Below are positions 2,286 through 47,555 of a stretch of DNA of 64,000 nucleotides, one piece after another (positions within the stretch are counted from its first letter, which is position 1; every line of letters begins with the position of its first letter). The notes under the pieces were generated by a model that did not search any database, had not been told where the DNA came from, and saw only the letters and a program-made list of their open reading frames with translations. Source of the stretch: a virus; IMG/VR virus record IMGVR_UViG_3300037247_000655, positions 62,001 through 126,000 of that record; one strand, given 5' to 3'. Position numbers and translations under genes: made by a program.

Positions 2286-2293
2286 ATAGGAGT

Positions 2294-31779: not shown

Positions 31780-32207
31780 TAGAATGGGACACTGGGATCG
31801 TTAGTGGGAGCCTGAGCACTTGGTTCAGCTACTTTGGTCGCCTGTGCTGGTTGTGCTTCATCGCTGTTTTTAGCGGTCTTCACACACAACTGAAAATCAC
31901 GGACATTCAAAGAATAGGCGACCCTCTTTTGACCACTATCCTTGTCTTCCCAGCTATCTTGTTTAATATATCCATTGACGTAAATAGGCTGGCCCTTCTT
32001 GACTAGTTCAGACATCCTGGTTGCCTTAGCACTCCATACCTGCGCCCTCATAAAACAGGGTTCGTTCTGCCACTGATCATTATTATCCTTATAACTACGA
32101 TTAAAAGCCAGGTTGACAGTACAAACGGGCGTTTTCTTCTGTCCAACGAACTTTAGCTCCGGATCTGCAGTTGCAACACCAACACCATTAAAACTTAACT
32201 CTGCCAT
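31779..32207 (-). CDS. ssb: Single-stranded DNA-binding protein
   Basis: A 142-residue bacterial-type SSB. The OB fold occupies residues 1-110 (GVGVATADPELKF, VWSAKATRMSELVKKGQPIYVNGYI). A flexible Gln/Ala/Pro linker follows. The acidic, Phe-ended tip D-P-S-V-P-F matches the D-D-I-P-F tip by which SSBs recruit replication partners. Translation appears coupled to an eight-codon leader ORF whose stop overlaps its ATG. Confidence 0.95.
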   Translation of the reverse strand: MAELSFNGVGVATADPELKFVGQKKTPVCTVNLAFNRSYKDNNDQWQNEPCFMRAQVWSAKATRMSELVKKGQPIYVNGYIKQDSWEDKDSGQKRVAYSLNVRDFQLCVKTAKNSDEAQPAQATKVAEPSAQAPTNDPSVPF

Positions 32208-32233: not shown

Positions 32234-32248
32234 TAGTTAGTCCTCCTT

Positions 32249-32277
32249 GTTATACGTCCAAAGAGGTATTCTGTTGC
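32249..32277 (-). promoter_or_regulatory. Phage promoter before ssb, GCAACA-17-TATAAC
   Basis: GCAACA (32277-32272), 17 bases, TATAAC (32254-32249). It gives a leader of about 35 bases before ssb and would also serve the sigma-like gene and the glycan block downstream. Confidence 0.62.
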
Positions 32278-32283
32278 ACAAAA

Positions 32284-34152
32284 TTATAATAATTTTTGTA
32301 TATTCTTAACAATAAAGCTGCCCTTTCTTTTATCCCCGTAAACAAGACAGATAACATCATCTTTACATAATCCCCTAAGCTTGGAAAATACGTCGGGGAA
32401 GACTACCGCGTGATCCACTGAATACGTAGAATCTGACATAGTCAAGAAACACATTGGCTTACCGGGATTCTTACCTCTTTTTGTTTTAGTATGTTTCACA
32501 CTATCTATTATGACACACACAACAATATCATCCTGATTAGTAGCCTTAGCTATATCTAGGCAGGTATGTGTGGCAAGTGTTTGGTCTGCATCGTCGGCCT
32601 GAGAACAAGAAAGGGCGATTCCAAGAAAATACTTCTCCGCAGTAGCATTAGCCATGTTTGTATCCTTCAGTGGACTTTCTGTCATGGCGGCTTTCCTGGC
32701 CATCATTGTCCGTCTAGCATCACTGGCACACGGTGGTTTGACGACAATATCTCGATATCCATTGTCTAGCATTAGTTTTTCTAATTTCTTCTTAGTCCGT
32801 CCCCCTAGTTCGGACAACCACGACACTTTCTCTTCACTTGAAGTATATACAAATTTACTGTCCCCATCTGTGATTCCGTCAAAAGCAACATCGGCTTGGT
32901 CCAAGTATTCCTGTGTAGCTTTTACCAATTCACCCTTGGTCATTTGCTTGATAGTTTTTGTTTTGCATCCAGCAGGCTGGGACATTTGTAGTAATATTTC
33001 CTGTGTAGTCATCTCACCAAGTTCCAGTTGATTGAAAAAATAAACTTTCTCTTTACCGGTTAGACCCTTTACTTCTACTTTTTTGCCAGATTCGTCATGA
33101 ACAGAAGTCCCCAGTATTACTTCAAGTTCTCTGACCATCTCACTACGCTCCATACCGTAGCAATCGCACGCACCTGACTTAATTAAAGCTATTCCAACAT
33201 TTCTGTGAAAATCAGGGACAGAGGCCAAAAAGCCACCCCAAGTTCCCAAACATGGACTAGATACTTTTAAAGGGTCCATTCCTGGCGTTTCTGTGGCCGC
33301 TGAGACGATCTTCTTGATAGCCGAGGCACCAACACCCCTAATATGCGCCAGGCCAAAAGCTATGCCATTCTTTGTTTTTTCTGCCATCGTAAAATGTGTG
33401 TTTCCACTTCTGATGTCAGGAGGTAGAATTTCAACACCGAATAACCTGGCATCCTGTACTAATTTGTAAATCTCCTCCTTAGGATCACCCTTATAACTAG
33501 AATATGTAAGGTAACTTGTGAAGAACTCTCTAGGAAAGTGGCACTTTATCCAAGCAGTTTGGTATGCAATCAGACCATAACTTACAGCATGGCTTTTATT
33601 AAAACTGTAGCGTTGACATTTTTCAATCCAACCAAAGATTTCTTCAGCTACTTCTAAGTCAATCTTGCCATATTCTTGGGCACCTTTGATAAATTTAGAC
33701 TTTACTTTAGCCATAAGCTTAGAATCCTTTTTACCTATAGCTTTTCTCAGCGTATCGGCACTTTCGGGACTAAGACCAGCCAAGTCGGTAGCTATTCTCA
33801 GCGCTTGCTCCTGATACACCATCTGGGCGTGAGTAGATTCTAATATCGGTTTTAAGGCGGGATGTAGATAAGTTATTTTTTTCTTTCCAAACTTAACGTC
33901 GACATAGGCTTGACTGAGCCCACTTTCAAGTGGACCTGGACGTAAAATACTCACTAACGCAGCCAATTCTTCTATACTATCGGGCTTTAATTTCTTTGAC
34001 CAATCTTGACCAAGATTTTTTTCAAGCTGGAAGACTCCAACAGTATTACCACTAGCCAGAAGCCTCCATACGGCAGGGCAATCCAAGTTGATGTTGTTGA
34101 TATCGAACTTACCCCTGTCTACGCGACATTTACAATTAGCGAACTCTATCAT
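32284..34152 (-). CDS. dnaE: DNA polymerase III alpha, C-terminal half of split DnaE
   Basis: A 622-residue protein that aligns by eye with DnaE from just after the third catalytic Asp: D-I-N-N-I-N-L-D...L-L-A-S-G-N-T-V-G-V-F-Q-L-E, LRPGPLESG, YQEQ, LRKAIGKKD, then S-F-N-K-S-H-A-V-S-Y, a helix-hairpin-helix region (AHIRGVGASAIKKI) and a C-terminal OB domain. It supplies fingers and DNA-binding parts. The catalytic Asps and PHP domain are in the gene at 44234-46609. No ribosome-binding site is seen; its promoter would start the message at or near the ATG. Confidence 0.93.
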   Translation of the reverse strand: MIEFANCKCRVDRGKFDINNINLDCPAVWRLLASGNTVGVFQLEKNLGQDWSKKLKPDSIEELAALVSILRPGPLESGLSQAYVDVKFGKKKITYLHPALKPILESTHAQMVYQEQALRIATDLAGLSPESADTLRKAIGKKDSKLMAKVKSKFIKGAQEYGKIDLEVAEEIFGWIEKCQRYSFNKSHAVSYGLIAYQTAWIKCHFPREFFTSYLTYSSYKGDPKEEIYKLVQDARLFGVEILPPDIRSGNTHFTMAEKTKNGIAFGLAHIRGVGASAIKKIVSAATETPGMDPLKVSSPCLGTWGGFLASVPDFHRNVGIALIKSGACDCYGMERSEMVRELEVILGTSVHDESGKKVEVKGLTGKEKVYFFNQLELGEMTTQEILLQMSQPAGCKTKTIKQMTKGELVKATQEYLDQADVAFDGITDGDSKFVYTSSEEKVSWLSELGGRTKKKLEKLMLDNGYRDIVVKPPCASDARRTMMARKAAMTESPLKDTNMANATAEKYFLGIALSCSQADDADQTLATHTCLDIAKATNQDDIVVCVIIDSVKHTKTKRGKNPGKPMCFLTMSDSTYSVDHAVVFPDVFSKLRGLCKDDVICLVYGDKRKGSFIVKNIQKLL

Positions 34153-34157
34153 ACTAC

Positions 34158-34186
34158 ATTATACCTCTAACTAAACGATTTGTTCC
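34158..34186 (-). promoter_or_regulatory. Phage promoter before the dnaE C-half, GGAACA-17-TATAAT
   Basis: GGAACA (34186-34181), 17 bases, TATAAT (34163-34158) preceded by GG. The -10 box ends six bases before the ATG at 34152, so the transcript would be leaderless or nearly so. Confidence 0.68.
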
Positions 34187-34192
34187 ATGTTT

Positions 34193-35125
34193 TTACAATA
34201 TAATATCAACAGAAAAAAATTGTCCCTTTATATCTTGCCATATATTATGAGACAATCCTCCGTCAGATTGTATTGCATAGTAATTATTATGTAACTCGTA
34301 TCCGGCTGATGCTATTTTATTAGTTTGTGCATCATTATGGATAGCTTGTTCGCACACATCAAGTAGGTCTGATAAATCTTGCTTGACAGACAAGTAATGC
34401 ACATCTGGTTCCATACAGTTAAGCCATCGAACATCTTGTAGACAACATGACACCACAGCAGAACCGACACCAAGGGTCTCGAACATACGATAGGTTAACG
34501 GACTATTGCCCGGCATACATAGCGATAGCAGTGATTGATTTATGGTTCTGAGATAGAAGCTCCTTGGACGATGACCAATTTCTACACCGCTAATATCTCT
34601 CGGTTCAGTCCCACCCTCTTGCCCAACAATACCACCAACGAACCACGGTTGACTTTTCAGGATTTCGCACGCACGGATTCTTAGGTTGTCTTTTGTACTC
34701 TGTGCTCCTGTTGGCAATCCAAAGAAACACGCCTTGGGCTTCTTTGTCGATGGTTTAGGTAAACCACCAATCAGAAATGGATGTACCGTTATCATCTTAT
34801 CCAGTATCCGTGGATCATAGATGGCAAGGTTATTATCCCACTGTATTTTTGCGAAAGCAGATACTTTATCGATTAATTCATCTGGCAGACCGTCGAGTTT
34901 GAATACATTCAAGTCTCCTAAAGATACAAGAACTATTTGACCACGAAAAGCCAATATTTCATCGACGATAAACTGGTCCAGAGCGTGAGGCCATATGCAG
35001 TCCACAAACCATATATCTGCGTCATTCCTGTTAGTTAGCGTATGTCCATATCTTTGGAGGGTTTGCAGTAAAGCGTACATTCTTGGTGGTGTAGCCTTGT
35101 GGATTGCAAGTGTGCGTATCTTCAT
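34193..35125 (-). CDS. Putative GT-B glycosyltransferase
   Basis: A 310-residue protein. The N-half has strands with ADIWFVDCIWPH and IVLVSLGD. The C-half has ACFFG, a region with R-x-x-x-F-Y, and S-P-L-T-Y-R-M-F-E-T-L-G-V-G-S-A-V-V-S, which matches the donor-binding E-x-x-G-x-G-x-x-V-V element of phage and bacterial GT-B proteins of the spore-maturation/exostosin type. Last gene of the 10-kb glycan island before the dnaE C-half. Confidence 0.65.
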   Translation of the reverse strand: MKIRTLAIHKATPPRMYALLQTLQRYGHTLTNRNDADIWFVDCIWPHALDQFIVDEILAFRGQIVLVSLGDLNVFKLDGLPDELIDKVSAFAKIQWDNNLAIYDPRILDKMITVHPFLIGGLPKPSTKKPKACFFGLPTGAQSTKDNLRIRACEILKSQPWFVGGIVGQEGGTEPRDISGVEIGHRPRSFYLRTINQSLLSLCMPGNSPLTYRMFETLGVGSAVVSCCLQDVRWLNCMEPDVHYLSVKQDLSDLLDVCEQAIHNDAQTNKIASAGYELHNNYYAIQSDGGLSHNIWQDIKGQFFSVDIIL

Positions 35126-35140
35126 TATCTTATCCCCTAA

Positions 35141-35827
35141 TTATTCGAATGTGTATCCAAATCTATTAACAATGTATTTATCCATTTTCTCAACCGATTG
35201 TCTAAGCTTGGCGTCATAATACTCTTGATACCTGCCATGTTTAGAAGTATTCACCTTCGCCATTGTTGCTAGAGTGTTTTTCTGTTGTTCTGTTATTCCA
35301 ACAGTGGTATCTGCCAGGAAATTAGTTAGGTCTTCTCTAAGGTTTTCGGTACGGCACAAATGAATATTAAATACCATATCATCTGTTATGGACTTGGTTT
35401 TCAATGCTTTGAATACCACAGCTTGATTACGACAATAACTTTGTATATAATAGTATGTGTAAATTCCTATCCCAAGCCTATTGATTAATCCAAAATCTAT
35501 GTTATGGACTTTGGTATTCAAATTGGCAATCTTACTCATGAATTCAACAAAGTTTGTTTGTTTGCCATTGGGATGTAATACTTTAAAAGGCCCTTTTAAA
35601 GCTTCTGTTCTCTGAGTACTAGCATACCAGGATACATACCAATCCCACGGATTACGGATTGTGCCCAGTATAGGTTTCTGTCTATATCTCTTTGGGATAT
35701 CACATGCTTTGTCATGAACTATTCCATTGTATTTGGCGTTCGGTATGTTGTTAGTCAGATATTCTCGAATAAATGATCCTCCAGTTTTTTGAAGATGTAT
35801 ACAAATAAAATGTGGTGTGACAATCAT
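35141..35827 (-). CDS. Sulfotransferase family protein
   Basis: The ATG at 35827 overlaps the previous stop (ATGA); a TTG at 35833 is also in frame. Of 228 residues, H-L-Q-K-T-G-G-S at 11-18 is the PAPS 5'-phosphosulfate loop, and R-N-P-W-D-W-Y-V-S-W at about 58-67 is the 3'-phosphate-binding block of carbohydrate sulfotransferases. It should transfer sulfate from PAPS to a glycan hydroxyl. It is a rare activity in phages and fits its place among glycosyltransferases. Confidence 0.82.
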   Translation of the reverse strand: MIVTPHFICIHLQKTGGSFIREYLTNNIPNAKYNGIVHDKACDIPKRYRQKPILGTIRNPWDWYVSWYASTQRTEALKGPFKVLHPNGKQTNFVEFMSKIANLNTKVHNIDFGLINRLGIGIYTYYYIQSYCRNQAVVFKALKTKSITDDMVFNIHLCRTENLREDLTNFLADTTVGITEQQKNTLATMAKVNTSKHGRYQEYYDAKLRQSVEKMDKYIVNRFGYTFE

Positions 35828-36729
35828 TTGCAAATTCCTTGTACTTGATTCAGAAGCTCTACCACGCGATCACTATAAGTGGGACATCTATCAAAACCGC
35901 ACTTACGTATTTTTTCCCTCTCATCATCGTGGTCGCAATAATAATCTATTGTTGTTTTCAGTGAGTTCATGTCGTGTCGCGGGAATACGACCAACTCTTC
36001 CCCAATTACAAATTCCTGCTCCATACCAACTGTTGCTGGATGTAACAAGAATCCACCGCGACCACGTTGTTCGTATAGACGATTACTCCAATAATAATTG
36101 CCAGGTAACGAATCACCAACTACAACCTTTGTCGACCTTAGTAATTTATTTAGCTCTAACCCACGAATTTGGTCGCACGGGTTTTCAGATGCGCCAAAGA
36201 CCTTGAATTTCTTCCCATAAGTGTCTTGCAGGAAGTTTACTAATTTCTTGCGATACTCGTTGTACACACTGCCGACAAAGATAATATCACAATCAACAGC
36301 GATAGGGTCTACCCATACACGATCGGGAGCGTGAAGGCCTTGTCGTAAGGTGATGTGGTCAACTCCAAACTGAGCCTTCCACTGATCGTCGCACCCACCA
36401 TCAGTTGTGCAAACTAGGTCTGACAAATATAGTTTGCGTTTTCTTATTATGGTTTGTGCCCTGTCGAGGTAGAAGAGTCTGTCGAAACTCCAGTGTACCA
36501 CCAGAATATTCTGTTGATTTAACCACGGCAGTAGTATTCCAAAATAGTCAGCCCCTTTGCCACACAACACGAAGTCTGGTTTGTTGCTGGTGATTATCTG
36601 CTTAATCTTAGTCAGGGCTGTTTCTAGAGGCACTTTGGTCACATTGATCCCTAGTTCGTTGAATGCCGTTGTTATGTAGTTGCCGCTAGAGAAGAAGTGG
36701 TCAAACTTATCGATATATATAATGTTCAC
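35824..36729 (-). CDS. GT-B glycosyltransferase
   Basis: An upstream ATG (36762) is in frame, but GTG at 36729 has a GGAGG site eight bases before it and begins the hydrophobic first strand, so 301 residues are proposed. C-domain: DIIFVGSVYNEYRKK, VVVGDSLPGNYYWSNRLYEQRGRGGFLLHPAT, typical of phage and bacterial 'Glyco_trans_1_2' GT-B enzymes. The sugar and acceptor are unknown. Confidence 0.75.
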   Translation of the reverse strand: MNIIYIDKFDHFFSSGNYITTAFNELGINVTKVPLETALTKIKQIITSNKPDFVLCGKGADYFGILLPWLNQQNILVVHWSFDRLFYLDRAQTIIRKRKLYLSDLVCTTDGGCDDQWKAQFGVDHITLRQGLHAPDRVWVDPIAVDCDIIFVGSVYNEYRKKLVNFLQDTYGKKFKVFGASENPCDQIRGLELNKLLRSTKVVVGDSLPGNYYWSNRLYEQRGRGGFLLHPATVGMEQEFVIGEELVVFPRHDMNSLKTTIDYYCDHDDEREKIRKCGFDRCPTYSDRVVELLNQVQGICK

Positions 36730-36768
36730 AATAACATACCTCCACAAAACTGTCCTGTGCAATTCTAA

Positions 36769-37497
36769 TTAAGCAGGCTTCTTCCACAATGCACGGACGT
36801 ATCTCTGCCCCTTGTCTCCACTGAGTTTCCACTTAGCTACTTCTTCCATACCACATCTCTCGCGCAGTATGTCCAGTGCTTTGTATTCGAATTCTGTCAT
36901 ATGTCCCGCTGGGCTGAAGCGTATCAACTCGGAAGCGTTCTTAATTGGAACTTCGATATGGATATGGCCATTCGGCTTCAGCATCTTTACAGCTTTGTCC
37001 ATTGATTCAAGGGGGTTAATAACATGCTCAAGTGTGTTCCAGAACACTACCAAATCGAATTTATTATCAACTGCAAATGGGTCATCTTCCACAAAACCAT
37101 GAAAAATATCTAAGCCATAATTATGTCTTGCCCATGCAATGGCTTGCCAACTTAATTCGTTACCGTATACTTTCCATCCCTTTGATTGGGCAATGTGCAT
37201 TACAAAACCTGCTGCTGCTCCTACATCATAAAGTTTACCTACAGTAACGTGTGGTTTAATGAGATCCAATTGTTCAGAAGCCTGGGTAAGACGCTTCTTC
37301 CTGGTTTCTGAATTGGTACAAGCAGTAAGCATCATATTTGCTAACGACTGCTTCAAAGCAGCCTTGGACGGCACTTCAGTATTCCAATGCACCTGGCACA
37401 TTTTACATGCAAAAAATTTATCAACCACCGGACCAGACAATTTACTTCCGCAAAATCTACATTTCATAATTTTTGTATGACTAATCACTTTATCCAT
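36769..37497 (-). CDS. Methyltransferase with N-terminal zinc ribbon
   Basis: A 242-residue protein (or 232 from M11, which gives the common MKCRFCG opening but lacks a ribosome-binding site). C-x-x-C at about 13-16 and C-x-x-C at 32-35 form a zinc ribbon. Motif I is Y-D-V-G-A-A-A-G-F at about 90-98. DLVVFWNTLEHVINP and L-K-P-N-G-H-I-H-I-E-V-P complete a class I fold of the Methyltransf_23 type often found in sugar-methylating clusters. Confidence 0.8.
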   Translation of the reverse strand: MDKVISHTKIMKCRFCGSKLSGPVVDKFFACKMCQVHWNTEVPSKAALKQSLANMMLTACTNSETRKKRLTQASEQLDLIKPHVTVGKLYDVGAAAGFVMHIAQSKGWKVYGNELSWQAIAWARHNYGLDIFHGFVEDDPFAVDNKFDLVVFWNTLEHVINPLESMDKAVKMLKPNGHIHIEVPIKNASELIRFSPAGHMTEFEYKALDILRERCGMEEVAKWKLSGDKGQRYVRALWKKPA

Positions 37498-38246
37498 CTC
37501 CCAGCTTCACGAATTTTCCTAACCAAACTCTGGTCTTTTGGCCATACTTTTCTGTCTGGCCTACCGTAATTGATTACATCAATTATTACACCCATAGCGT
37601 CACAAGCATGGACAAAAACCGACGAAGATAAAACTCTATACCTAGCCTCACGGGCTAAAACAAAAGAAAAATTGATGTCTGGATCAGCGCAGTAGTGGTT
37701 GCCACCAAGCCCTGTATCTATAACTGGTAAATCTGGTAAGTGTTTTTTGATCCAATCTGCGCAATCCCAATCGTGTGTGGTATGGAATTCTATTTGTGTA
37801 TGTCTGTATATGTACCCGTTTGGGTAGCAAGACGAAACAAGGTCCATGGCTCTTGCTTCGGTATCCGGGGGAATAAAAACTTCAAGTTGATTGTCGTCAG
37901 GTGTAATACCGCATTCCTTCCAGTTGGTCGCAATTTTACATCCTTTTATGATTGATTCGTGCAAACAACTTATGGACATATCATAATGTTTGGATAGTCG
38001 CTCGAATTGTAGAATATTCAATTCCTTTTGACACTCGAATCCTAAATCGGATCTCCACGGGTTGTCAATATTTACAAAACCTTTTACATATGGACATTCT
38101 CTCAATAGGCCAGAATTGAAAACTTCAGGTCTACACATCAAATCAATAGTATGTCCTTGTTTATAAAGATGTCTCAAAATTGGTGTCAATAAGACAACAT
38201 CCCCCAATCCGTGCCAGTATAGAATGATTACTTTCTTATTTTTCAT
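37485..38246 (-). CDS. GT9 heptosyltransferase-like protein
   Basis: A 253-residue protein beginning with W-H-G-L-G-D-V-V-L-L-T-P-I-L-R, the start of the GT9 (LPS heptosyltransferase) N-domain. The C-domain retains S-S-S-V-F-V-H-A-C-D-A-M-G, corresponding to the 'G-P-x-H-x-A' donor region with changed residues. At 253 residues it is shorter than bacterial heptosyltransferases (about 320-350). One of three GT9-like genes here. Confidence 0.68.
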   Translation of the reverse strand: MKNKKVIILYWHGLGDVVLLTPILRHLYKQGHTIDLMCRPEVFNSGLLRECPYVKGFVNIDNPWRSDLGFECQKELNILQFERLSKHYDMSISCLHESIIKGCKIATNWKECGITPDDNQLEVFIPPDTEARAMDLVSSCYPNGYIYRHTQIEFHTTHDWDCADWIKKHLPDLPVIDTGLGGNHYCADPDINFSFVLAREARYRVLSSSVFVHACDAMGVIIDVINYGRPDRKVWPKDQSLVRKIREAGRWIK

Positions 38247-38250
38247 ATAT

Positions 38251-38811
38251 CTAAACCCTTAAGATAACCTCAATAAAAGCTTCTGCTCCCATCTGAGTTT
38301 GGTCAACGTTACCCAGTGAATAATCATAGTCCGTATCTACTATTTTTACAGACAATATGTCAACATCAAACTGTTTCAACCATGATTGAATGTGAATAGA
38401 TTTGGGCAACTGACTGCATGTCTTCATGGTGAAAGACCATAAATGACTTTTGTTAAAAGTACTGGGCCACTTGTCGTGTTCATATAATGTTTCGTCGGGG
38501 ACAGTAAAGAAAACAATCCCGCCCGGCCTTACAATTCGTATCCACGATTTAAGTGCTTGAGCAGGATCGCCGATGTGTTCTAGGCAATTCGATGAATAGG
38601 CGAAGTCAACACTGTCATCTTTCATTTCTCCCATCGTTTGAGCTTCATGGGCACTGCTATGGTGCAACTTATCATAAGGGATCACGTTGCCGTCAATAAT
38701 TTGCAGGATGTCTTTACCACATCCTATGTCTATTCCATTACCACAAAGATACCTATGAAAATATCCAGCTGCTAAGCGACGAGGATATCCTTTTCTTGTT
38801 TCGTTACTCAT
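38251..38811 (-). CDS. SAM-dependent methyltransferase
   Basis: The frame is open from 38847, but ATG 38811 has an AGAGGAGG site and overlaps the previous stop as ATGA (186 residues). Motif I N-G-I-D-I-G-C-G-K-D is near residue 24, D-F-A-Y-S-S-N-C-L-E-H-I near 71 and the I-V-R-P-G-G-I-V-F-F-T-V-P strand near 95: a type-11 class I methyltransferase. Sugar methylation is likely from context. Confidence 0.83.
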   Translation of the reverse strand: MSNETRKGYPRRLAAGYFHRYLCGNGIDIGCGKDILQIIDGNVIPYDKLHHSSAHEAQTMGEMKDDSVDFAYSSNCLEHIGDPAQALKSWIRIVRPGGIVFFTVPDETLYEHDKWPSTFNKSHLWSFTMKTCSQLPKSIHIQSWLKQFDVDILSVKIVDTDYDYSLGNVDQTQMGAEAFIEVILRV

Positions 38812-39494
38812 AATTCCTCCTCTTGTACATGATGATATGGTGCCCACTCTGGTACAATTCGTTCACTATAAGATGGTGAGTCTAGAATATGCCGTATATA
38901 CACGCTACTTTGTATTCGTTGACTGACAGCCATTATACTTATTATTCCTTGAAATGTTGTGACGTGTTGGGCCATGCTTACAACACCAAGTGCTTCCAAT
39001 AAAGATGTTTTATTGGTTAAATTAATAACGTTATCGCCTTTTATCTTCTTAGCTGTCTCACTTGTTCCTAAAACTACAACTGGGTAGCATGAATTTTTAA
39101 TTGTTGTATCTATGATTTTTTCAGTCAATATTCTTTTTTGATCTGGTCTACCAGATCGTGGATTCAAGACAACATAATGTTCTGGTAAATCAGATACTTT
39201 AGGGAAAACAAAGTTTGGGAAGACACACCAGTCGTCTGGGGAAGATAGTATTTTACCAAATTTCTTATGAGGTGTAAAAGCAGAGTATATTCTTGGGTTT
39301 ATTGTGTCTGGTTTGTCTACAAACTCCACACGTATATTTGGCATTAACGAGTAAATTTGTCTAATCAATCCTTGCCATTTTTTGTTATCTGTGTGGTGTC
39401 TACATAGAATATGCTCTATCTTCGCAACGTGATATAGAATACATAAATTTATATATGTATCTCCAATTGTACCGCTACATCCGTAAGTTTTCAT
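38808..39494 (-). CDS. GT9-like glycosyltransferase, divergent
   Basis: The ATG at 39494 has AAGGAG and starts M-K-T-Y-G-C-S-G-T-I-G-D-T, a GT9-type N-terminal loop; 228 residues. Further on are VVLNPRSGRPDQKR (substrate-phosphate loop) and VVVLGTSETAKKI with NLTNKTSLLEALGVVSMAQ, the usual GT9 donor-domain order, although the 'GPxH' element is replaced by T-T-F-Q-G. Overlaps the kinase gene by 20 bases. Confidence 0.62.
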   Translation of the reverse strand: MKTYGCSGTIGDTYINLCILYHVAKIEHILCRHHTDNKKWQGLIRQIYSLMPNIRVEFVDKPDTINPRIYSAFTPHKKFGKILSSPDDWCVFPNFVFPKVSDLPEHYVVLNPRSGRPDQKRILTEKIIDTTIKNSCYPVVVLGTSETAKKIKGDNVINLTNKTSLLEALGVVSMAQHVTTFQGIISIMAVSQRIQSSVYIRHILDSPSYSERIVPEWAPYHHVQEEEL

Positions 39495-40455
39495 CTTGTA
39501 ACTCCTTGAGCGAACACACGGCAGTACCGGTTTTACCCACGACAATTCCTGCCGCCAGGTTGCTTAATTTGACAGCTTGTTGCAAATTGTAGTCATTGGC
39601 GACACAAGCTGCAAAAGTGCTTAATACAGTATCTCCTGCTCCTGTTACATCAAGTATCATTTGTGGATCATCTCGATTGATAGATATGTGTGCTGGGAAA
39701 ATATGTGACTGTCCTTCTTGATCAAGTAAGAAAATACCATCATGCGACATAGTGATTATAACCGCTTTTAAGTTGAATTTTTTCTTAATGGCGTGAGCCA
39801 AATCTTGTACTGTCTCATTATTGTCAGACACTACCAGTTGCTTAGCTTCAGCGAGGTTAGGTGTAATACAAAATACATCACAGAACAATTCACTATTGAC
39901 TGGCTTGATGTCACATATAATTGGACATACAAATGACGATCTGATTACTTTCATTACTTTATCCGTAACAGTTCCTTTAGCATAATCAGACACAACTATT
40001 ACATCAAAGTGTTGCTGTTGACTAAGTTTCTTTAGATGTTCTATCATTGTAGACTCATGTCTTTTTCTGTGCGATAAGGTTTTTATTGTTGAATCATCAT
40101 CGTATCGTACCATATGCTGTCTATTTGCAATAATACGTGTTTTAGAGATAGATGGAGCAGTTGAAAAAATTAAATTATTACATCCAATCAGATGTATCTT
40201 CAATTGTTGTTTTAGTTGATTTCCTGTGTAGTCGTCACCAATATACCCTACAAGTTTAACATTACATCCGAATGATTTAAGATTTACCGCCACATTTGCT
40301 GCTCCACCAGCAGCGACATTTTCTTTAGATATAAGAACAACAGGAACAGGTGCTTCTGGAGATATACGGGTAGCTGTACCATACTTGTAAATATCAAGCA
40401 TAATATCTCCAATCACTAAAATTCGTGCATCATTGAATGTCAATGATTGTGTCAT
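39475..40455 (-). CDS. hldA: PfkB sugar kinase, heptose-7-phosphate kinase-like (HldA/RfaE1)
   Basis: A 326-residue kinase with VIGDIMLD near residue 14, R-I-S-P-E-A-P-V-P-V-V near 31 (a hallmark of the HldE kinase half), A-A-G-G-A-A-N-V-A-V-N near 49 and the catalytic D-V-T-G-A-G-D-T near 272. It lacks the adenylyltransferase half of HldE, so it corresponds to stand-alone HldA, making D-glycero-beta-D-manno-heptose 1,7-bisphosphate. With three GT9-like neighbours it suggests phage-directed heptose chemistry. Coupled by ATGA to the radical-SAM gene upstream. Confidence 0.85.
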   Translation of the reverse strand: MTQSLTFNDARILVIGDIMLDIYKYGTATRISPEAPVPVVLISKENVAAGGAANVAVNLKSFGCNVKLVGYIGDDYTGNQLKQQLKIHLIGCNNLIFSTAPSISKTRIIANRQHMVRYDDDSTIKTLSHRKRHESTMIEHLKKLSQQQHFDVIVVSDYAKGTVTDKVMKVIRSSFVCPIICDIKPVNSELFCDVFCITPNLAEAKQLVVSDNNETVQDLAHAIKKKFNLKAVIITMSHDGIFLLDQEGQSHIFPAHISINRDDPQMILDVTGAGDTVLSTFAACVANDYNLQQAVKLSNLAAGIVVGKTGTAVCSLKELQDENLRM

Positions 40456-42086
40456 GCCTGTCTCCTCACAACAGAAATACCAAAGGTATAAAGTCCTCTT
40501 ACAGACCTCTCTTTTCTGTTTGCAATATCGACGTTGCTGAAGTCGGTGTCACCGACTCTTACAACCCCCATTTGCTTTAACGGTTTGAGGATTCGTTCTT
40601 CAAACGTCTCTGGGGTGTAAACCCTAGAATCTGTATGGGAACCAACAGGTCTATCCAAAACGATGGTCCTGTTTGCGTCTGGATACTCGATATATTTGTC
40701 GTAGAAATCCGTAGAGATCACCATAACGCCACCCGGTTTCAGATAACGAGCGAGATTCTGTATTGCCTTTGTATCTTCGTCAATGTGTTCAATGACACTT
40801 AGGTTAGTTATCAAATCAAATTGACCTTCTAGATCTTGGTCGAATTCTCTTAGGTCTCCGATGATACTCTTTACGCCAAACTTATCTCCAGTCTCATCTC
40901 TATAAGATCCATCAGAAACATCAATTGTTGTAACATTGTATCCCCTGTGTGACAGATAATATGGGAATACCGAGCGGGCACTACCTACATCTAGCGTCTT
41001 GCCTCTGATTCTGTGTCCTGAATATAACAAACTATAAGCATATTCGAACCACTTCAATTCATTACACTCTAACGAGTGTTCTATTCCAAATAATTTAATG
41101 TCTGCAAACAAACTCTCTATCTCAGGCAATTCCCTTTCTCTCTTGTCATAAAGCTTAGTCAACACTTGAGGCTTGGCGGTTTTATTCTTGACACACCCAA
41201 CCCTTGGGACATCGCACCAATTACACAGCCCATAATGACGACAAGTAACAGCTTTGTCTGGTACTGGCTTGAAGTTTTTAACATTACAGACCGGTCCAAT
41301 ATTGTAGTACATCTTATAATGACAGTGATAGTAGTCACCATTAGGCCCAATAATCAAGCTTCTTCTAGGATGAAAACACTGGGCTTCTTTTCCAGTTGCC
41401 TGTCCGCATATGTGTCTATAAGCAGCCAAGTCTGTTAAACCACATCTTTCCCCTACTCGCTTTAAGTCGTGATAATTTTCATCTGGCATCAAGTTCCCTT
41501 GATCAAAAGGAGCATTGAAACCATTTGCGTCATCATGAAATCCCAAGAACGAACCTTCGGTCATAGAAATATTTGCACTAACCTTTTTTATCTCATTTCC
41601 GTATTGTTCCATGACTCCTGGCGCATATACGAATGATGTTTGATCAACAAAGTATGAACCCTTTCTCCATTTTGCAATGACAGCTAAGTATTCATCTGCG
41701 GTAATGTGATTGGGATGAAATGTTGTGTTAATTCTAAGTGTCGAAGTTGGATGAACTTTGAACCTCTTGTCGAAATCGGGGTCTTTATAAAATGGACTTT
41801 TGCAGTTGGTCGTCATTGTGATGTTGTAGTTCTTCAGACCGTTTATGATTTCAACAATATCTGGATGTAGAGTCGGTTCTCCACCAATGATGGACAATTT
41901 TTGTCCATGCTCGTGTTCAACTCCGTTCCACCACTCCAGGATTTCCTTTCCACTCATTTCCTTTTGTGATACTCTACGACCTCTTCCATTGAGAATACAG
42001 AATGGGCATCCAGCACTACAACGTAGTGTGATCATATGCGCCCAATAACACCTCTGGTGATTATAATGTGATGGCAGCTTAGTCAT
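40452..42086 (-). CDS. Radical SAM - methyltransferase fusion
   Basis: A 544-residue two-domain protein. Residues 1-250 are a radical SAM domain with C-S-A-G-C-P-F-C (residues 23-30, C-x3-C-x2-C cluster) and G-G-E-P-T near 69. Residues about 228-310 contain nine or more cysteines and histidines, consistent with a SPASM-like auxiliary cluster. Residues about 345-544 are a class I methyltransferase (L-D-V-G-S-A-R-S, NLSVIEHIDED, LKPGGVMVIS). The fusion suggests successive radical and SN2-type modifications on one substrate, probably a sugar. The substrate is unknown. Confidence 0.85.
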   Translation of the reverse strand: MTKLPSHYNHQRCYWAHMITLRCSAGCPFCILNGRGRRVSQKEMSGKEILEWWNGVEHEHGQKLSIIGGEPTLHPDIVEIINGLKNYNITMTTNCKSPFYKDPDFDKRFKVHPTSTLRINTTFHPNHITADEYLAVIAKWRKGSYFVDQTSFVYAPGVMEQYGNEIKKVSANISMTEGSFLGFHDDANGFNAPFDQGNLMPDENYHDLKRVGERCGLTDLAAYRHICGQATGKEAQCFHPRRSLIIGPNGDYYHCHYKMYYNIGPVCNVKNFKPVPDKAVTCRHYGLCNWCDVPRVGCVKNKTAKPQVLTKLYDKRERELPEIESLFADIKLFGIEHSLECNELKWFEYAYSLLYSGHRIRGKTLDVGSARSVFPYYLSHRGYNVTTIDVSDGSYRDETGDKFGVKSIIGDLREFDQDLEGQFDLITNLSVIEHIDEDTKAIQNLARYLKPGGVMVISTDFYDKYIEYPDANRTIVLDRPVGSHTDSRVYTPETFEERILKPLKQMGVVRVGDTDFSNVDIANRKERSVRGLYTFGISVVRRQA

Positions 42087-42870
42087 CTAAAATTCCTTTG
42101 TCTAGCAAAGTATCAACATTTTGTACCACTTCTTTTGGAGATGGCACCCTATTCTGACAAATAAACTCTACCGGAGTGTTAAACGGATTCCATAGTTTCT
42201 TGTATCTTTTTTCGAGTGTGTGGTGTATGGATGCTATCCATGTAACATGAGGACACCCACATAAACTTGCAAGATGTATGGGTCCGCTACTTGGTCCGAC
42301 AACACACTTTGCTGAGGATATTGCGCTGCACTGTTTTTCCAGTGATTGGCCTCTCAAATCTTCTGCACCATCTGGACAATAATTATCGACACCTCCGAAA
42401 CAAGCAACAGATAAACCCCGCGATATTAGTATTTCAACCAAATGTTGACATTTACCAAAGGGATATTGTTTACCTGATATTATTTTCCCATCAATACGTT
42501 TAATAGGGCGAAATGCACATAAAACATCAGCTACATACCCTGGAGATTCTGGTGACAAGTTTCTCCATAATCGCTTGGTCGATATTCTTTCTGGTTCATC
42601 ACTGTGTTTGGCAAATTCTTTGTGGGGCGACAATGTTTTATCTGCATTTATTATTGGATAATCACCCAATAGCTGGCCATCACAATAAGAAGTACCAATA
42701 GTATCAAGTGGTATAAATTTGTCTGCAAATTCATATAAGTATTGTGACCCTTTTGGCGCTGCGACTATTACATGATTATATTTTTTAGCATGATATCTCA
42801 CCAATGGATTATAAAAACATAATTCCCATCCAAATTCCCCAACCCAGGGTTTACAATATAATGCTGTCAT
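42079..42870 (-). CDS. GT9 heptosyltransferase-like protein
   Basis: Start at ATG 42870 after a GAGAGGG site (a GTG at 42879 overlaps the previous stop); 263 residues. The C-domain has V-V-G-P-S-S-G-P-I-H-L-A-S-L-C-G-C-P, the classic GT9 donor-site block, after a CFGG strand and QCSAISSA. The N-domain opens with W-V-G-E-F-G-W-E-L-C. Best preserved of the three GT9-like genes. Likely transfers heptose or a related sugar. Confidence 0.8.
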   Translation of the reverse strand: MTALYCKPWVGEFGWELCFYNPLVRYHAKKYNHVIVAAPKGSQYLYEFADKFIPLDTIGTSYCDGQLLGDYPIINADKTLSPHKEFAKHSDEPERISTKRLWRNLSPESPGYVADVLCAFRPIKRIDGKIISGKQYPFGKCQHLVEILISRGLSVACFGGVDNYCPDGAEDLRGQSLEKQCSAISSAKCVVGPSSGPIHLASLCGCPHVTWIASIHHTLEKRYKKLWNPFNTPVEFICQNRVPSPKEVVQNVDTLLDKGILDD

Positions 42871-42875
42871 TCTTT

Positions 42876-43505
42876 TCACCCTCTCGTTGGAGTTGTTAAT
42901 GCCTTATTAATTGACCAATGACCCCTAACGAGTCGCTCTCGTATAGTCCTTTTGTTAATACCGGTTTCTTCTGCCCAAGCCGAGATGCATTGCGTTTTTT
43001 TGTTAAACGTAATCATATAATTACTACGTTTATTTCTGCTATTTTCTTTGGGTGTTGTCCATCGACAATTTTCTTTACAATAATTTCCATCGTTGTCGAT
43101 TCTATCTATCTGCAAACCAATTGGGACTTCACCCATATCATCTAAGAAATTCTTAAATTTTTTCCATCGATCACAGATAATGATCCCTCTGCCACCATAA
43201 TTCTTCCAATGCTGATCATTTTGGTTGGTACATCTTTGTATAATGCTTGACCATACATTGTAAGTTTTTCTTGTTCTACCAGCATCGTTTTTTGTATGGC
43301 CGTGTTTAACATTGTTACCTTTTCTACGTAGACATCCGCAGCTTTTAGTATTACCTCTTTTCAAACTATTCCCACAAATTATCTTTTCATTGCCACAATC
43401 ACATTTACACAGCCATTCATAATGACCATCACTACTTTTCCCTGTCGGCTTAATCACGACTAATTTATTAAATTTCTTACCAGTTAGATCTATAAAATTT
43501 GACAT
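42876..43505 (-). CDS. HNH-type homing endonuclease-like protein
   Basis: A 209-residue paralogue of the 2294-2935 gene: the C-K-C-D-C-G ... K-S-C-G-C finger (about 33-58), N-Y-G-G-R-G-I, the D-R-I-D-N-D-G-N-Y-C..N-C-R-W-T-T block and the W-S-I-N-K-A-L-T-T-P-T-R C-terminus. It is inserted between a GT2 and a GT9 gene without disrupting either. Free-standing mobile gene by family. Confidence 0.75.
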   Translation of the reverse strand: MSNFIDLTGKKFNKLVVIKPTGKSSDGHYEWLCKCDCGNEKIICGNSLKRGNTKSCGCLRRKGNNVKHGHTKNDAGRTRKTYNVWSSIIQRCTNQNDQHWKNYGGRGIIICDRWKKFKNFLDDMGEVPIGLQIDRIDNDGNYCKENCRWTTPKENSRNKRSNYMITFNKKTQCISAWAEETGINKRTIRERLVRGHWSINKALTTPTRG

Positions 43506-43511
43506 AATATA

Positions 43512-44249
43512 TCATCTTAAAGTATGACCATCTCTAGTATATATTGTCACACCATTTCTATCAATGACCCTATTGACGTTTAGATGATCCATCAACATAT
43601 TGAGGTGATATTGCATACGTTTATTCCTGTGATTAAAATAGTTTTGATCTCTAATTGGCATATGCCCAGTGACTATACCAGGAGTATACACAATATTCAA
43701 CTTCCCTAAAGCACGACAAAAAAACGGAATATGATCACATGTCTTGAACAAAGCACTCCATCCACCAATTCCCCTGATCTTTTCTGTTCTACCCATCCAG
43801 AACTGAAGAACAATATCCCATAGATCAAAGTTTCTTAGTCGACTGCGCGGATTTGGCTTAAAAATAAGCGCATTGTCTTCTATGTGGAGTGAACTTTGAT
43901 ACTGGGGGTGGCCATCAACTTGTCCTCCTACAATGTCGATTTCTGTATTGTTTTCGAGAATTTCCAACCATTTTGATAATTGTGTCCTGTCATTAAAAAT
44001 AAAATCATCATCAAGAGTTACTACATACGGCGTATCAACCTTACTAAGTGCAAGATTACGGCCAGCCGAAACACCACTATCGTACGGCATTAATAGATGT
44101 TCTGCTCCTGTAATAGAATGTGGTTTAGCACTGTCATCTGCTACAATTATTCTAATATCAGGATACATCATTCTGATGCTATAAATCAGCCTATCTACAC
44201 ATCTAGGTCGTTCAAATGTTTTGACTATCAGAGTTACTTTGTCTCGCAT
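43512..44249 (-). CDS. Glycosyltransferase family 2
   Basis: A 245-residue GT-A protein: L-I-V-K-T-F-E-R-P at 7-15, I-I-V-A-D-D-S at about 33-39, and the metal-binding V-T-L-D-D-D-F near residue 77. Downstream, G-I-G-G-W and a W-D-I-V region are consistent with acceptor binding. Starts inside the end of the dnaE N-half (16-base overlap), so it is the first gene of the island between the dnaE halves. Confidence 0.83.
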   Translation of the reverse strand: MRDKVTLIVKTFERPRCVDRLIYSIRMMYPDIRIIVADDSAKPHSITGAEHLLMPYDSGVSAGRNLALSKVDTPYVVTLDDDFIFNDRTQLSKWLEILENNTEIDIVGGQVDGHPQYQSSLHIEDNALIFKPNPRSRLRNFDLWDIVLQFWMGRTEKIRGIGGWSALFKTCDHIPFFCRALGKLNIVYTPGIVTGHMPIRDQNYFNHRNKRMQYHLNMLMDHLNVNRVIDRNGVTIYTRDGHTLR

Positions 44250-46609
44250 TCTTGCACCTCTTTGAATTCTTCGTCTAACACAGAATCTGCTGATTCTCCA
44301 TTAATTAGATCCATCGCTTTCCATAGCTTATCCAACGCTACGACCCCCAGAAAATCGAATTTCACCGCCCCCATAGCTTCTGCATCAGACATCTCTAGAC
44401 CGACAACTCTATCTTTATTTTTGGCATCATAAACCATTGGTACAAGTTCTTCTATGGGCCTATCTGCTATAACGACACCAGCAGCATGTTTTGATTGTGA
44501 TTTTTTAGTACCTTCGATTCTCATAGCCTGATCAAACAACGGCTTATACCACTCGTAAGCATCTTTTACTTGTTCAATATGGTGTATCGCCCATTGTAAG
44601 ATACCATAATCGTCACCATGATCTTCTCTTGCTTGCCTTAACTCATCAGATATAGACGCCTCATCAGGTATATGACGTGTAATATCGTTACATAAATCAT
44701 GGGGAGTCATACATATATCATCTGCGTTCTTTCCCTCTTTGATTGATTTCACTTTCATAAGATGCTTGACAGTATCTGGATGAGCACGGAACACTTCTTT
44801 CAAAGCTGCTTTACCCTGGAGTCTTCCGAACGTAATCATTTGCGCAACGTATTCTTCACCCCATCTCTTTTTCAGATACGTAATGACTTCGTTGCGAAAC
44901 ACAACCCCTATATCCGTATCAATATCAGGAAGGCTAATATGACCCTTATGGATAGTTACATCTTTGTTGGTGTCCAATTCACAAGATTCAACTATTGTTA
45001 TACCAAGACCATGTGCCAAATGTGAGTTAGATGGATTAGTAGACGGCTTCTCTTTGATCATATCAGCCAAGTACATCCACATACGAGAATTATTGGCATC
45101 AATCCATTCAACTTCCTTCCTCATCATATCCGTAAACACCACGGGGTCAAATGGATCTTTACAATATTGTTCTATTCGTCCAGCCAGGTGAAGAGAGACA
45201 TATTTCCTGTCTGAGTCTATATCCCTTGTGTGTAATAGTTCAAAGTTATCAGACATCCAAGACATGAAACTAGTATGCCCGACATCAAAGTGAGGTGGTA
45301 TGTTACGACTCATATTATAGAATCTTTCAAAATACAAACCGTATTTGATCGGATCTATTCCTGTTATTCCTGTTAGATAATTGATAAGTGATCCTGCTCC
45401 AGAACCTCGTCCCTTGCCTCTTGGTCCGTTGGATTCGTCTACGAACTTACATGCATCCCAAACTATAAGAAAATAATCTGCTAATCCGGCCTCTTGGATG
45501 ACTATGAGTTCCCTTTTTAATCTTTTCCAATATGTAGCCTTTTGTGATTGATCAAGATGGGACAACTTTTCCTTAGCACCTTCTATACACAGGTGTTTGA
45601 GATATTCTATAGAATTCATGCCAAGTTTTTTAGACTCATCATTTGTAAAAATTGGCAAATACGGATTATGGCCAAGCGATGAGTATTCTATACGATCTGC
45701 TATGTCTAATGTCGCTTGCAGTTCTGCTTCCGTAAATGTCTCCCGCATTTCTTCGTATGACGGTATATAGTACTTATCAGAAACAAAAAAGTCCATTACA
45801 TCTTGGCCGGTGGAGATTTTGTAGTCTTGCGCCTCTTTTGTTGTATGGAGACTTGCATACAAAAGCAATCGTTGGTCCTCAGCATCTTCTTGTCTACAAT
45901 AATGGGCATCAATGGTGGCGACTGTGGGAACACCAGTTTCTATACTTAGCTCACGGAGACATTCGACAACCACAGTTTGAATTCCCATCGATTCGTCCTG
46001 TAATTCTAAATAATAATTGTCTTTTCCGAATATCTCTATATGCTTTTGAATTATTGCTTTGCCAACTTCTAACCAATCTGGTTTTAGATACTTTCTAGCC
46101 TCAGCAACATTGTGATTACGACCAGCCATGATAGCTTCTTTAAAATCTATAAACAGCTCCATAGATAACTCCCCTGCGATGCACGCAGTCAGGAATATGA
46201 GATTTCTACGTTTTGCGAATTTAGCTATGCCAGTCAGATCTATTCTAGGTTTTCGATAGAAGTGGTCCGGTTTATTAGTTTCAGATACCAACCGCATTAA
46301 ATCTTCGATTCCTTGATCGTTTTTAGCAAGAACTATTAAGTGATGTCTTTTGTTGTTGGCGTTGTTTTTTATAGTTGGGTCTTGTTCACAGACATATAGT
46401 TCACATCCGATAATGGGTTTGATTTTTGCTTTTCGTGCTGCATCATAGAATGTCTTCATACAGCTTATATTTCCATGGTCTGAAATTGTGCAAGCAGGAA
46501 GTCCCAACTCAACACATCTGTTAACTATGTCTTTTGGTGAACAAAGTCCGTCCAATAAACTAAAGTATGAATGTAAATGAAGTGGGACATATGTTTTTGT
46601 ATTATTCAT
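44234..46609 (-). CDS. dnaE: DNA polymerase III alpha, N-terminal half of split DnaE
   Basis: A 791-residue protein: PHP domain (H-L-H-S-Y-F-S-L-L-D-G at 11-21, S-D-H-G, G-C-E-L-Y-V, T-I-D-A-H-Y), GRGSGAGS, F-E-R-F, then the palm with P-D-I-D-T-D (about 555) and the third catalytic Asp in K-F-D-F-L-G (about 747). It ends about 45 residues later, in the linker before 'FQLE', which is in the 32284-34152 gene. An unusual insertion of about 115 residues lies between F-E-R-F and P-D-I-D-T-D. The PHP metal ligands look intact, so proofreading is possible. Confidence 0.94.
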   Translation of the reverse strand: MNNTKTYVPLHLHSYFSLLDGLCSPKDIVNRCVELGLPACTISDHGNISCMKTFYDAARKAKIKPIIGCELYVCEQDPTIKNNANNKRHHLIVLAKNDQGIEDLMRLVSETNKPDHFYRKPRIDLTGIAKFAKRRNLIFLTACIAGELSMELFIDFKEAIMAGRNHNVAEARKYLKPDWLEVGKAIIQKHIEIFGKDNYYLELQDESMGIQTVVVECLRELSIETGVPTVATIDAHYCRQEDAEDQRLLLYASLHTTKEAQDYKISTGQDVMDFFVSDKYYIPSYEEMRETFTEAELQATLDIADRIEYSSLGHNPYLPIFTNDESKKLGMNSIEYLKHLCIEGAKEKLSHLDQSQKATYWKRLKRELIVIQEAGLADYFLIVWDACKFVDESNGPRGKGRGSGAGSLINYLTGITGIDPIKYGLYFERFYNMSRNIPPHFDVGHTSFMSWMSDNFELLHTRDIDSDRKYVSLHLAGRIEQYCKDPFDPVVFTDMMRKEVEWIDANNSRMWMYLADMIKEKPSTNPSNSHLAHGLGITIVESCELDTNKDVTIHKGHISLPDIDTDIGVVFRNEVITYLKKRWGEEYVAQMITFGRLQGKAALKEVFRAHPDTVKHLMKVKSIKEGKNADDICMTPHDLCNDITRHIPDEASISDELRQAREDHGDDYGILQWAIHHIEQVKDAYEWYKPLFDQAMRIEGTKKSQSKHAAGVVIADRPIEELVPMVYDAKNKDRVVGLEMSDAEAMGAVKFDFLGVVALDKLWKAMDLINGESADSVLDEEFKEVQECETK

Positions 46610-47555
46610 TATCTACTCCCGGTTTTCCAATTGCTAGCTGCTGTTCGTATGTCAACTTGGCATATTTGTTTTTCACAAAGTCTCCTCCAGAAGTATGTAA
46701 ATCGCTCCACACCCTATCACAGATACCATTGCGACCGAAAGAACACATCTTACAAGACCAGTGCTTATTTCTTCGTATCAACGTATCGTTCTTTACAGTT
46801 CTTAAAAAGTCATAGAGAAACTCGACGGTACCAATAAGATCATTGCGAGATAATGCAATTGTTATTGGGCCACCACTATTAGCATAAAAGAAGGTGATAA
46901 TTATATTCTTGTATTGTGGATAAAGAAAGAATGCTGCTAGGTGGTATAGTCTAGGTTGTACTTCTCTCATCAGAACTTTTTCGTCAATTGGTTCCTGTGT
47001 ATGAAAATTTGTTCTATTACCAGATTTCCAGTCTATTATTTCTAAAGTATCTTTGTCTATTTCACGGGTTAGATCAATGAAACCTCGCACAGTAAACTGT
47101 TTCTCTTCTCCTTCATTATTTGAGCATTTCCATTCTTCTCCAGGCATCTCCAGAGAAAACCATTGTTCTGCTTCTAATACATCTACTAAATAGGGATTAT
47201 AAAATTCATCAGCAAGTACGGTCTCAAGAGCAACTCTACACTTCTTGAAGTCAGCAGCTTCCTTTAGGGCACCAGTTTCTCTATCTACACGAGTAGTAAC
47301 TTTCCTGATCTGTATTTCTGGAGAATTTTGAGTGTGCTCGTCCCATGCTCTATTCAGCAACCACATCGGATCAACATTGGTTTTGCCACGTTTTTTTAGC
47401 CGAGCCATCCATTCCAGAGCCTGATGTATGATGCTACCCTGAAGAGCCGCCTTACCAGTTTTAGATTCTAGACCTAAAAGGTAATGCAGATAATAAGCGA
47501 ATTGGCAATGATTATATGTCCCAATTGCACTAGAGCTACATCTTACAATTTTCAT
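46602..47555 (-). CDS. RecB/Cas4-like PD-(D/E)XK nuclease
   Basis: A 317-residue protein: S-x-I-x-x-Y-x-x-C-x-x-x-Y-x-L opening, GSIIHQALE (motif with His), V-R-G-F-I-D-L (catalytic Asp), E-I-I-D-W-K-S-G (E-x-K-type motif: D-W-K), Q-x-x-x-Y, and C-x-x-C...C near the C-terminus. The first Cys plus the last three could hold a 4Fe-4S cluster as in Cas4/AddB. Probably processes DNA ends in replication or recombination. Coupled by overlap to the dnaE N-half. Confidence 0.82.
   Translation of the reverse strand: MKIVRCSSSAIGTYNHCQFAYYLHYLLGLESKTGKAALQGSIIHQALEWMARLKKRGKTNVDPMWLLNRAWDEHTQNSPEIQIRKVTTRVDRETGALKEAADFKKCRVALETVLADEFYNPYLVDVLEAEQWFSLEMPGEEWKCSNNEGEEKQFTVRGFIDLTREIDKDTLEIIDWKSGNRTNFHTQEPIDEKVLMREVQPRLYHLAAFFLYPQYKNIIITFFYANSGGPITIALSRNDLIGTVEFLYDFLRTVKNDTLIRRNKHWSCKMCSFGRNGICDRVWSDLHTSGGDFVKNKYAKLTYEQQLAIGKPGVDNE

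Follow-up and report, generated by a model that had tools for sequence, protein, structure and literature searches.

A split viral dnaE whose two genes flank a slot of changing cargo

How does a virus come to carry its DNA polymerase in two genes that lie ten kilobases apart, and did the genes now found between them cause the break? This question is raised by a 64,000-nucleotide stretch of a virus genome (the window; positions 62001-126000 of the 165,526-bp record IMGVR_UViG_3300037247_000655), in which a C-family DnaE is encoded as an N-terminal half (DnaE-N) and a C-terminal half (DnaE-C) on either side of a slot filled with a glycan cassette. An earlier note on this DNA, made from the letters alone, had proposed that the cassette entered dnaE and thereby broke it. 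Our analysis points to another history, which we consider probable: DnaE works as two chains, the break is older than the cassette, the slot swaps its cargo, and an HNH homing gene is the likeliest cause of the break. The split dnaE is functional, as judged by selection, it is old, and it is used as a slot for changing cargo. The features on which this rests are the following.

44234 to 46609, minus strand: DnaE-N, 791 aa, with PHP, palm and thumb (Pfam, Taq alpha alignment, AlphaFold superposition)
32284 to 34152, minus strand: DnaE-C, 622 aa, from the fingers to the OB fold (Pfam, Taq alpha alignment, AlphaFold superposition)
34153 to 44233, minus strand: the variable slot of about 10 kb, holding the glycan cassette and an HNH gene

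Open reading frame (ORF) positions and Pfam matches confirmed that both halves lie where the earlier note had put them, on one strand and in N-to-C order. DnaE-N matched PHP (8e-40) and DNA_pol3_alpha (5.5e-67), and DnaE-C matched DNA_pol3_finger (1.6e-47) and HHH_6 (2.2e-11). In the alignment to Taq alpha, DnaE-N ended at residue 636 and DnaE-C resumed at 642 (583 in E. coli). AlphaFold models, computed from alignments of 24 (DnaE-N) and 16 (DnaE-C) sequences with the window's own included, reached mean predicted local distance difference test (pLDDT) values of 87.5 and 84.4, respectively, with pLDDT below 50 over the final 17 residues of DnaE-N. Because the two models superpose on Taq alpha residues 5-639 (Z 39.5, root mean square deviation (rmsd) 3.7, 559 aligned) and 640-1122 (Z 17.4, rmsd 6.6, 429 aligned), they place the cut at the palm/fingers boundary (about Taq alpha 639/640) and predict that nothing is missing there; alignment and superposition agree in this with the claim that no core motif was lost. 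The PHP-to-OB architecture of a C-family DnaE was thus recovered from the two parts together, the OB fold being kept in DnaE-C, and the last domain of Taq alpha, beyond 1122, had no match. The complete second dnaE that the earlier note had named as fatal to its proposal was not found in the 165.5-kb record, which may be incomplete: each family matched a single ORF, the palm family matching two stretches of its ORF. In the same record PolA and PolB had no match, and a DnaQ-type exonuclease domain was found outside the window, at record positions 12886-13386.

Conservation points to a working enzyme. The three catalytic Asp residues that had been assigned to the N-half were verified as D562, D564 and D752, invariant in 24 N-halves. 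Positions H11, H13, D20, H45, E70, H90, C143, D234 and H236, which correspond to the PHP metal ligands of the M. tuberculosis enzyme, were invariant in nine N-halves, and in the wider set of 24 eight of these nine were at least 90% conserved (C143 is not listed among them). Much of the finger core was also invariant among C-halves. Between the window and its relatives, the proportion of synonymous differences (pS) was 0.75-0.92 and that of nonsynonymous differences (pN) was 0.13-0.26 for the N-half and 0.15-0.23 for the C-half. Strong purifying selection on both halves is indicated by this comparison, because synonymous sites were saturated while pN stayed that low; for the same saturation no dN/dS is given. 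Each half alone gave a confident model, as might be expected if they were not one enzyme at all, the N-half being a nuclease and the C-half a DNA-binding factor while the host replicase copies the phage. We regard such separate roles as very improbable, given the invariant catalytic Asp residues and finger core and the co-occurrence of the halves in 18 of the 22 records searched, the four exceptions being short or edge-cut contigs (three of less than 12 kb without a C-half, and one, starting 2.4 kb before the C-half, without an N-half). C-family DnaE would then be divided at the palm/fingers boundary into two chains that are translated separately, and DnaE-N and DnaE-C would very likely reassemble non-covalently into one polymerase.

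Are the halves instead joined after transcription or translation, by an intron with very distant exons or by split-intein trans-splicing? Whole inteins are common elsewhere in the halves of relatives, which lends this idea some appeal, but at the break one half ends in a stop codon of its own, the other begins with its own start codon, the tails are short and divergent, no intein site was seen there, Pfam found no intein or Hint domain in either window half, and no Rfam intron was found at the breaks (that of Bacillus phage KLEB27-3, described below, included). Joining is therefore extremely improbable; intein halves at the break were rejected as a candidate, in line with the earlier statement that none flank it. 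The inteins of relatives were seen at several sites in L093, L099, L092, L100, L029 and L106, namely KPIIG/C in the PHP domain, RPGPLE/C, Y/C before FNKSH (L092) and FNK/C, some of the Pfam matches being below cut-off and L092 being judged from its sequence only; none of these sites coincides with the palm/fingers break.

The new N-terminus of DnaE-C has a feature of its own, a CxC followed by a third Cys (C7, C9, C25), a pattern found in 16 of 17 clade C-halves. L092 was the sole miss, and there the start is misplaced and the motif is visible in the sequence; its C-half (record G008) has no ATG, GTG or TTG in frame before the conserved start and may use another start codon. The motif also occurred in L192, L193, L194, L133, L135 and L137, and was not found in L132, L142, L145, L146, L162 nor in the continuous DnaE compared beside them. 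The AlphaFold model placed the three cysteines in a short hairpin, and a metal site there is a guess from this model.

To place the break in time we turn to the relatives, of which the close ones were drawn from viral contigs; the collection kept 79 distinct loci of 208. All 18 records with both halves have them separate and on the same strand. In 16 of these the N-half comes first, with a gap of 5.0-12.3 kb. In G019 and G021 each half is near a different end of the contig, and joined ends would give the same order, with distances of 17.3 and 8.6 kb. A C-half search of 16 further records gave no match in 11 and gaps of 8.5, 13.7 and 11.8 kb in three members of the same clade (G024, G029, G031). 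In total, dnaE was split in 21 of 21 clade records holding both halves, 5-17 kb apart; since G001 comes from the same virus as the window and the pairs G002/G003 and G013/G014 seem to be near-copies, these records and the window amount to 19 distinct viruses. The surroundings were also conserved, with a PD-(D/E)XK nuclease ahead of DnaE-N, SSB after DnaE-C and, where the relatives' loci reach, helicase and primase further upstream. Coding-strand ORFs covered 88-102% of the slot (overlaps counted twice; 16 distinct viruses).

The contents of the slot, by contrast with its borders, were variable, with at least three cassette compositions within the clade. The first (window, L090, L096, L103) begins with a family 2 glycosyltransferase, the second (G021, L091, L094, L095, L098, L100) begins with families 7, 8, mostly 6, and 9, and the third (L092, L093, L106) has families 21-24 in common. 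This listing covers the coding strand with strongly overlapping ORFs dropped, so that 11 of the window's 12 ORFs are shown, and the Pfam scan covers the window's cassette, the others being called glycan-type through shared families and by eye.

Outside the clade, L132, L133, L135, L137, L142, L145, L146 and L162 are split at the same boundary. The two dnaE genes of L132 (C-half 46% identity) are adjacent, with no cargo; L133, L135 and L137 carry a DnaQ/RNase_T exonuclease (L137 by resemblance), and L145, L146 and L162 carry apparent dUTPase and thymidine-kinase genes, read by eye. L194 (G035), whose N-half is 41% identical, carries an island of 10 kb with different genes that look glycan-like. 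Because the same boundary is broken in outside relatives that have no cargo or different cargo, and because the clade itself holds several cassette types, the break is, to judge from these comparisons, older than the window's glycan cassette. That the cassette itself entered a continuous dnaE in this lineage, as first proposed, would account for the collinearity of halves and cassette, and a continuous relative with similar upstream gene order does exist (L143); it is distinctly unlikely in view of split relatives without glycan genes, several cassette types per slot and the same boundary throughout, and a recent entry was rejected on the cassette variety and on the same-boundary splits with other or no cargo. 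In L143 the continuous dnaE follows genes for helicase, primase and a weakly matched nuclease, arranged in the order of the window clade, and for this reason the gene appears either to have been once continuous or to have re-fused in L143. The earlier idea of a once continuous dnaE thus survives in part: a continuous relative exists, but it may be a re-fused one. As a separate observation, the C-half of L194 is present as two ORFs (361 and 200 aa; reverse complement, 12302-13991) with one stop between them, either a third break or a sequence error.

A quick tree of 44 rows of joined N and C domains, with Shimodaira-Hasegawa approximate likelihood ratio (SH-aLRT) support only, was used to follow the split more widely. 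It was drawn from 54 rows, 28 split and 26 fused, of which ten near-copies, cut or short rows were left out (L136, L137, L150, L151, L153, L156, L157, L159, L171, L182); the incomplete rows L134, L138, L139, L140 and L173 also stand outside the tree, and the joined-row set excludes ten further loci (nine fused at the boundary, one cut) and most clade loci fetched twice. The 24 split rows formed one group (SH-aLRT 99) together with L143 and L141, both fused at the boundary, and outside it 16 of 18 rows were continuous, E. coli included. Two split isolates, KLEB27-3 and Rossellomorea phage phiT1, were outside the main group. The tree needs at least five state changes, three of them forced by well-supported branches. 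A reversed history, with a split ancestral form from which fusion later produced continuous phage DnaE, like that proposed for the two-part Pol III of jumbo phages (PMC7824862, where the passage concerned takes the split form as ancestral-like), would explain why L141 and L143 nest inside the split group and why split rows are as many as fused ones. It is nevertheless unlikely, considering the continuous majority outside that group and the genome collection, a scan of which gave relatives of 26-49% identity only: 23 of its 30 loci with both DnaE parts were continuous, and the main split group is nested. L141, fused at the palm/fingers boundary, has a break upstream of it, within the palm and close to the HNH cuts of L094 and L130 (see below).

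Five bacterial metagenome-assembled genome (MAG) contigs showed a DnaE-type polymerase split at or near the palm/fingers boundary in swapped order, C-half before N-half (L226:8198-11656, L219:2349-5810, L215:7004-10303, L223, and L224, in which the N-half is cut by the contig end). Four are labelled Ignavibacteria, Ignavibacteriaceae or Ignavibacterium and one BMS3Abin03. The split polymerase of L226 lies near lexA and a Y-family polymerase gene, and this type is probably a two-gene DnaE2-like mutasome.

What broke the gene in the first place? An HNH gene overlaps the DnaE-N 3' end directly at the break in L192, and KLEB27-3 has an HNH gene inside dnaE. In L094 and L130 an HNH gene cuts the N-half a second time, inside a palm insert that is found in neither the divergent clade relative G019 nor more distant DnaE:

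44942-45283, minus strand: clade insert of about 113 aa, DnaE-N residues about 443-556, ahead of the catalytic PDIDTD

The joints of the second cut in L094 are TAATG and ATGA overlaps and its C-half lies 7.8 kb further on, so that this DnaE is in three pieces; the second cut of L130 also holds a GIY-YIG gene. On account of these second cuts we infer that an HNH homing endonuclease is a plausible original cause of the break. Insertion of a free-standing HNH homing gene would be the likeliest first event, later recombination putting other genes in its place; lineages would then have gained, lost and swapped cargo while the order helicase-primase-nuclease-DnaE-N ... DnaE-C-SSB stayed. No close continuous allele of the split dnaE was found.

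A changing slot raises the question of how DnaE-C is supplied, since DnaE-N closes a long series of replication genes and the cassette that follows it has the same reading direction. A conserved element stands ahead of DnaE-C, and a matrix built from it found others of the same class.

34153 to 34204, minus strand: promoter-like element of DnaE-C, GGAACA (34186-34181), 17 nt, TATAAT (34163-34158), 5 nt to the ATG
32244 to 32295, minus strand: promoter-like element of the same class ahead of SSB (matrix)
56424 to 56475, minus strand: element of the same class ahead of the minus-strand gene run leading to DnaE-N and the cassette (matrix)
58, plus strand: fourth matrix site in the window (matrix)

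In 17 of the 20 clade loci, as read directly from their sequences, GTATAAT ends 5-6 nt before the DnaE-C ATG, and the letters on the -35 side are G(G/A)AACA-like, with GGAACA present, position by position, in 13, 8, 12, 13, 10 and 13 of the 13 matrix loci, which were chosen for carrying the element, so that their own 13/13 counts hold by construction. The -10 part was so placed in 1 of 184 other slot genes and in 0 of 16 N-halves. In the window the DnaE-C site, which was among those used for training, had a matrix score of 38.8 and the other three had 32.3, 25.7 and 25.1; the best score after these was 7.3, and the maximum on three shuffles was 15.6. The -10 part alone, with at most one mismatch, gave four matches in the window (one exact) against 2.1 expected and is not rare by chance. 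A generic sigma-70 scan of the window was uninformative (60 sites against 50 expected); the promoter that the earlier note gave to the C-half is thus not evident from such a scan and emerges, as a conserved element, from the comparison of relatives. Because its spacing leaves almost no leader ahead of DnaE-C, the mRNA is likely leaderless. The element could make DnaE-C supply independent of the cargo and would let the cargo change without starving DnaE-C; furthermore, no terminator-like site was found on the coding strand between the halves, and therefore read-through from the cassette may add to this supply. Two genes past DnaE-C, a Sigma-70 region 2-like protein (31189-31779, minus strand; weak, E 0.005, below cut-off) is a candidate reader of this promoter class.

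Several observations weigh against the history that we favour. A single split event was tried and rejected, since holding the 24 split rows as one clade gave an approximately unbiased test value (p-AU) of 7e-5, and all 26 rows held together were also rejected (p-AU 5e-7), both with a long-branch caveat for L141 and L143; the gene may have broken more than once at or near the boundary, or else re-fused. KLEB27-3 has its break some 30 aa later, beyond FQIE, where an intron could be present, and the N-half frame of G014 is broken where that of its near-copy G013 is whole, which is probably a sequence error. The HNH family, modelled from six proteins, occurred in no more than 8 of the 29 complete slots, and three of these eight, window, L192 and L177, had supplied sequences to the model; among partial slots it was present in 4 of 6. 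The window's HNH gene is second in the slot, not directly at the break, and alone it is not significant, because it is one of three members of this family in the window's genome; the two others (record 64276-64959, that is window 2276-2959, and 54638-55363) have stop codons inside each match. Lastly, the promoter-like element had no match in clade loci G019, L092 and L192 and was not present in the four outside loci inspected (L194, L132, L133, L137).

A more specific form of the exchange is possible, and we put it forward tentatively: the halves could serve as fixed arms, in which recombination between related phages swaps the whole cassette (glycan type, nuclease, nucleotide metabolism), replication being left unharmed because both arms are indispensable and highly conserved. 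The C-half would have evolved its own, probably leaderless, promoter and the Cys hairpin (C7, C9, C25), which may coordinate a metal and so pin the new end onto the N-half.

The slot of the window and its flanks are composed as follows, all on the minus strand.

49482 to 50924, minus: DnaB-type helicase
48313 to 49479, minus: Toprim primase
46602 to 47555, minus: PD-(D/E)XK nuclease, syntenic with DnaE-N in relatives
43512 to 44249, minus: family 2 glycosyltransferase (Pfam), its start overlapping the DnaE-N 3' end by 16 nt
42876 to 43505, minus: free-standing HNH endonuclease, phrog_374 (2.5e-68)
42079 to 42879, minus: GT9-like protein, weak, below the Pfam cut-off
40452 to 42086, minus: radical SAM and methyltransferase (Pfam)
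39475 to 40455, minus: PfkB-type sugar kinase (Pfam)
38808 to 39545, minus: ORF without Pfam match
38251 to 38847, minus: methyltransferase (Pfam)
37485 to 38246, minus: ORF without Pfam match
36769 to 37497, minus: methyltransferase
35824 to 36762, minus: glycosyltransferase (PF13524)
35141 to 35833, minus: sulfotransferase-like, weak
34193 to 35125, minus: glycosyltransferase-like, weak, below cut-off; family also beside or near the C-half in several relatives
31779 to 32207, minus: SSB, next gene past DnaE-C, syntenic in relatives

The homing gene announced by the earlier note is therefore present, and the count of ten glycan genes beside it has to be corrected, the slot being 12 ORFs (11 and the HNH gene); six of these 11 clearly match a glycosyltransferase, methyltransferase, radical-SAM or PfkB family, three are weak and two have no Pfam match. 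Beyond SSB, a glycosyltransferase (28278-31205, minus strand) contains an in-frame intein holding a LAGLIDADG domain, with LAGLIDADG_3 above the Pfam cut-off and Intein_splicing and Hint_2 below theirs.

If this history is correct, a full-size C-family replicase works as two chains without splicing, and the many natural versions available for comparison make the assembly of palm and fingers modules directly testable. The loci may also represent stages that follow a gene break: a bare break, a nuclease gene, useful neighbours, and finally exchangeable cassettes with a private promoter. This is relevant to the way homing genes remodel phage genomes and to the location of variable phage glycan genes, and it suggests that an essential gene, once broken, can serve for very long as a docking site for other genes. 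Among the matches listed in searches of the open-access literature, we found no paper on this full-size split DnaE or its slot, nor on the isolates KLEB27-3 and phiT1.

Among known systems, the DnaE of cyanobacteria is also encoded by two genes, which are joined by split-intein trans-splicing at Y/CFNKSH, a junction about 170 residues further on than the break in the window. Unlike it, the window DnaE has no intein half; an intein-like insert at the cyanobacterial site was seen, from sequence only, in the relative L092. Fractured phage-type genes, reportedly described by Dassa et al. in 2009, are said to be broken around an endonuclease gene and to carry split intein halves, which the window dnaE lacks.

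The group 2.2 jumbo phages have a minimal Pol III alpha made of two stand-alone proteins that are inferred to reconstitute the enzyme (PMC7824862), and they resemble our case in that a C-family polymerase is encoded apart as two phage proteins. As the relevant section of that paper presents it, the jumbo-phage form is minimal, without other Pol III domains, and stands beside a family B polymerase, whereas the window DnaE keeps its PHP and OB parts in a record with no PolB match and thus falls outside that minimal definition. Passages in PMC3919608 mention fragmented polymerase genes as intein-split or frameshifted, and others in PMC10580990 and PMC6892783 concern split phage polymerases; in MIJ3 an intein and an HNH gene accompany a split PolB. 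The T4-related Aeromonas phages 25 and 44RR likewise have their replicase in two genes, 43A and 43B, with a seg homing gene at the break in phage 25 and an untranslated spacer in 44RR, and a review states that the two phage 25 products purify together and show activity (PMC2988022); that polymerase belongs to family B, and the review's passage on it describes no multi-kilobase exchangeable cassette. The same review reports in its section on such genes that nrdA of phage Aeh1 is split by mobE with a fully active split product, and it names T4 gene 60 with mobA as a further case of a broken gene (PMC2988022). These are essential genes broken by a free-standing homing gene, as we infer for the window's dnaE; theirs involve other enzymes and a single homing gene (PMC2988022), whereas the clade of the window holds 5-17 kb of cargo in the break.

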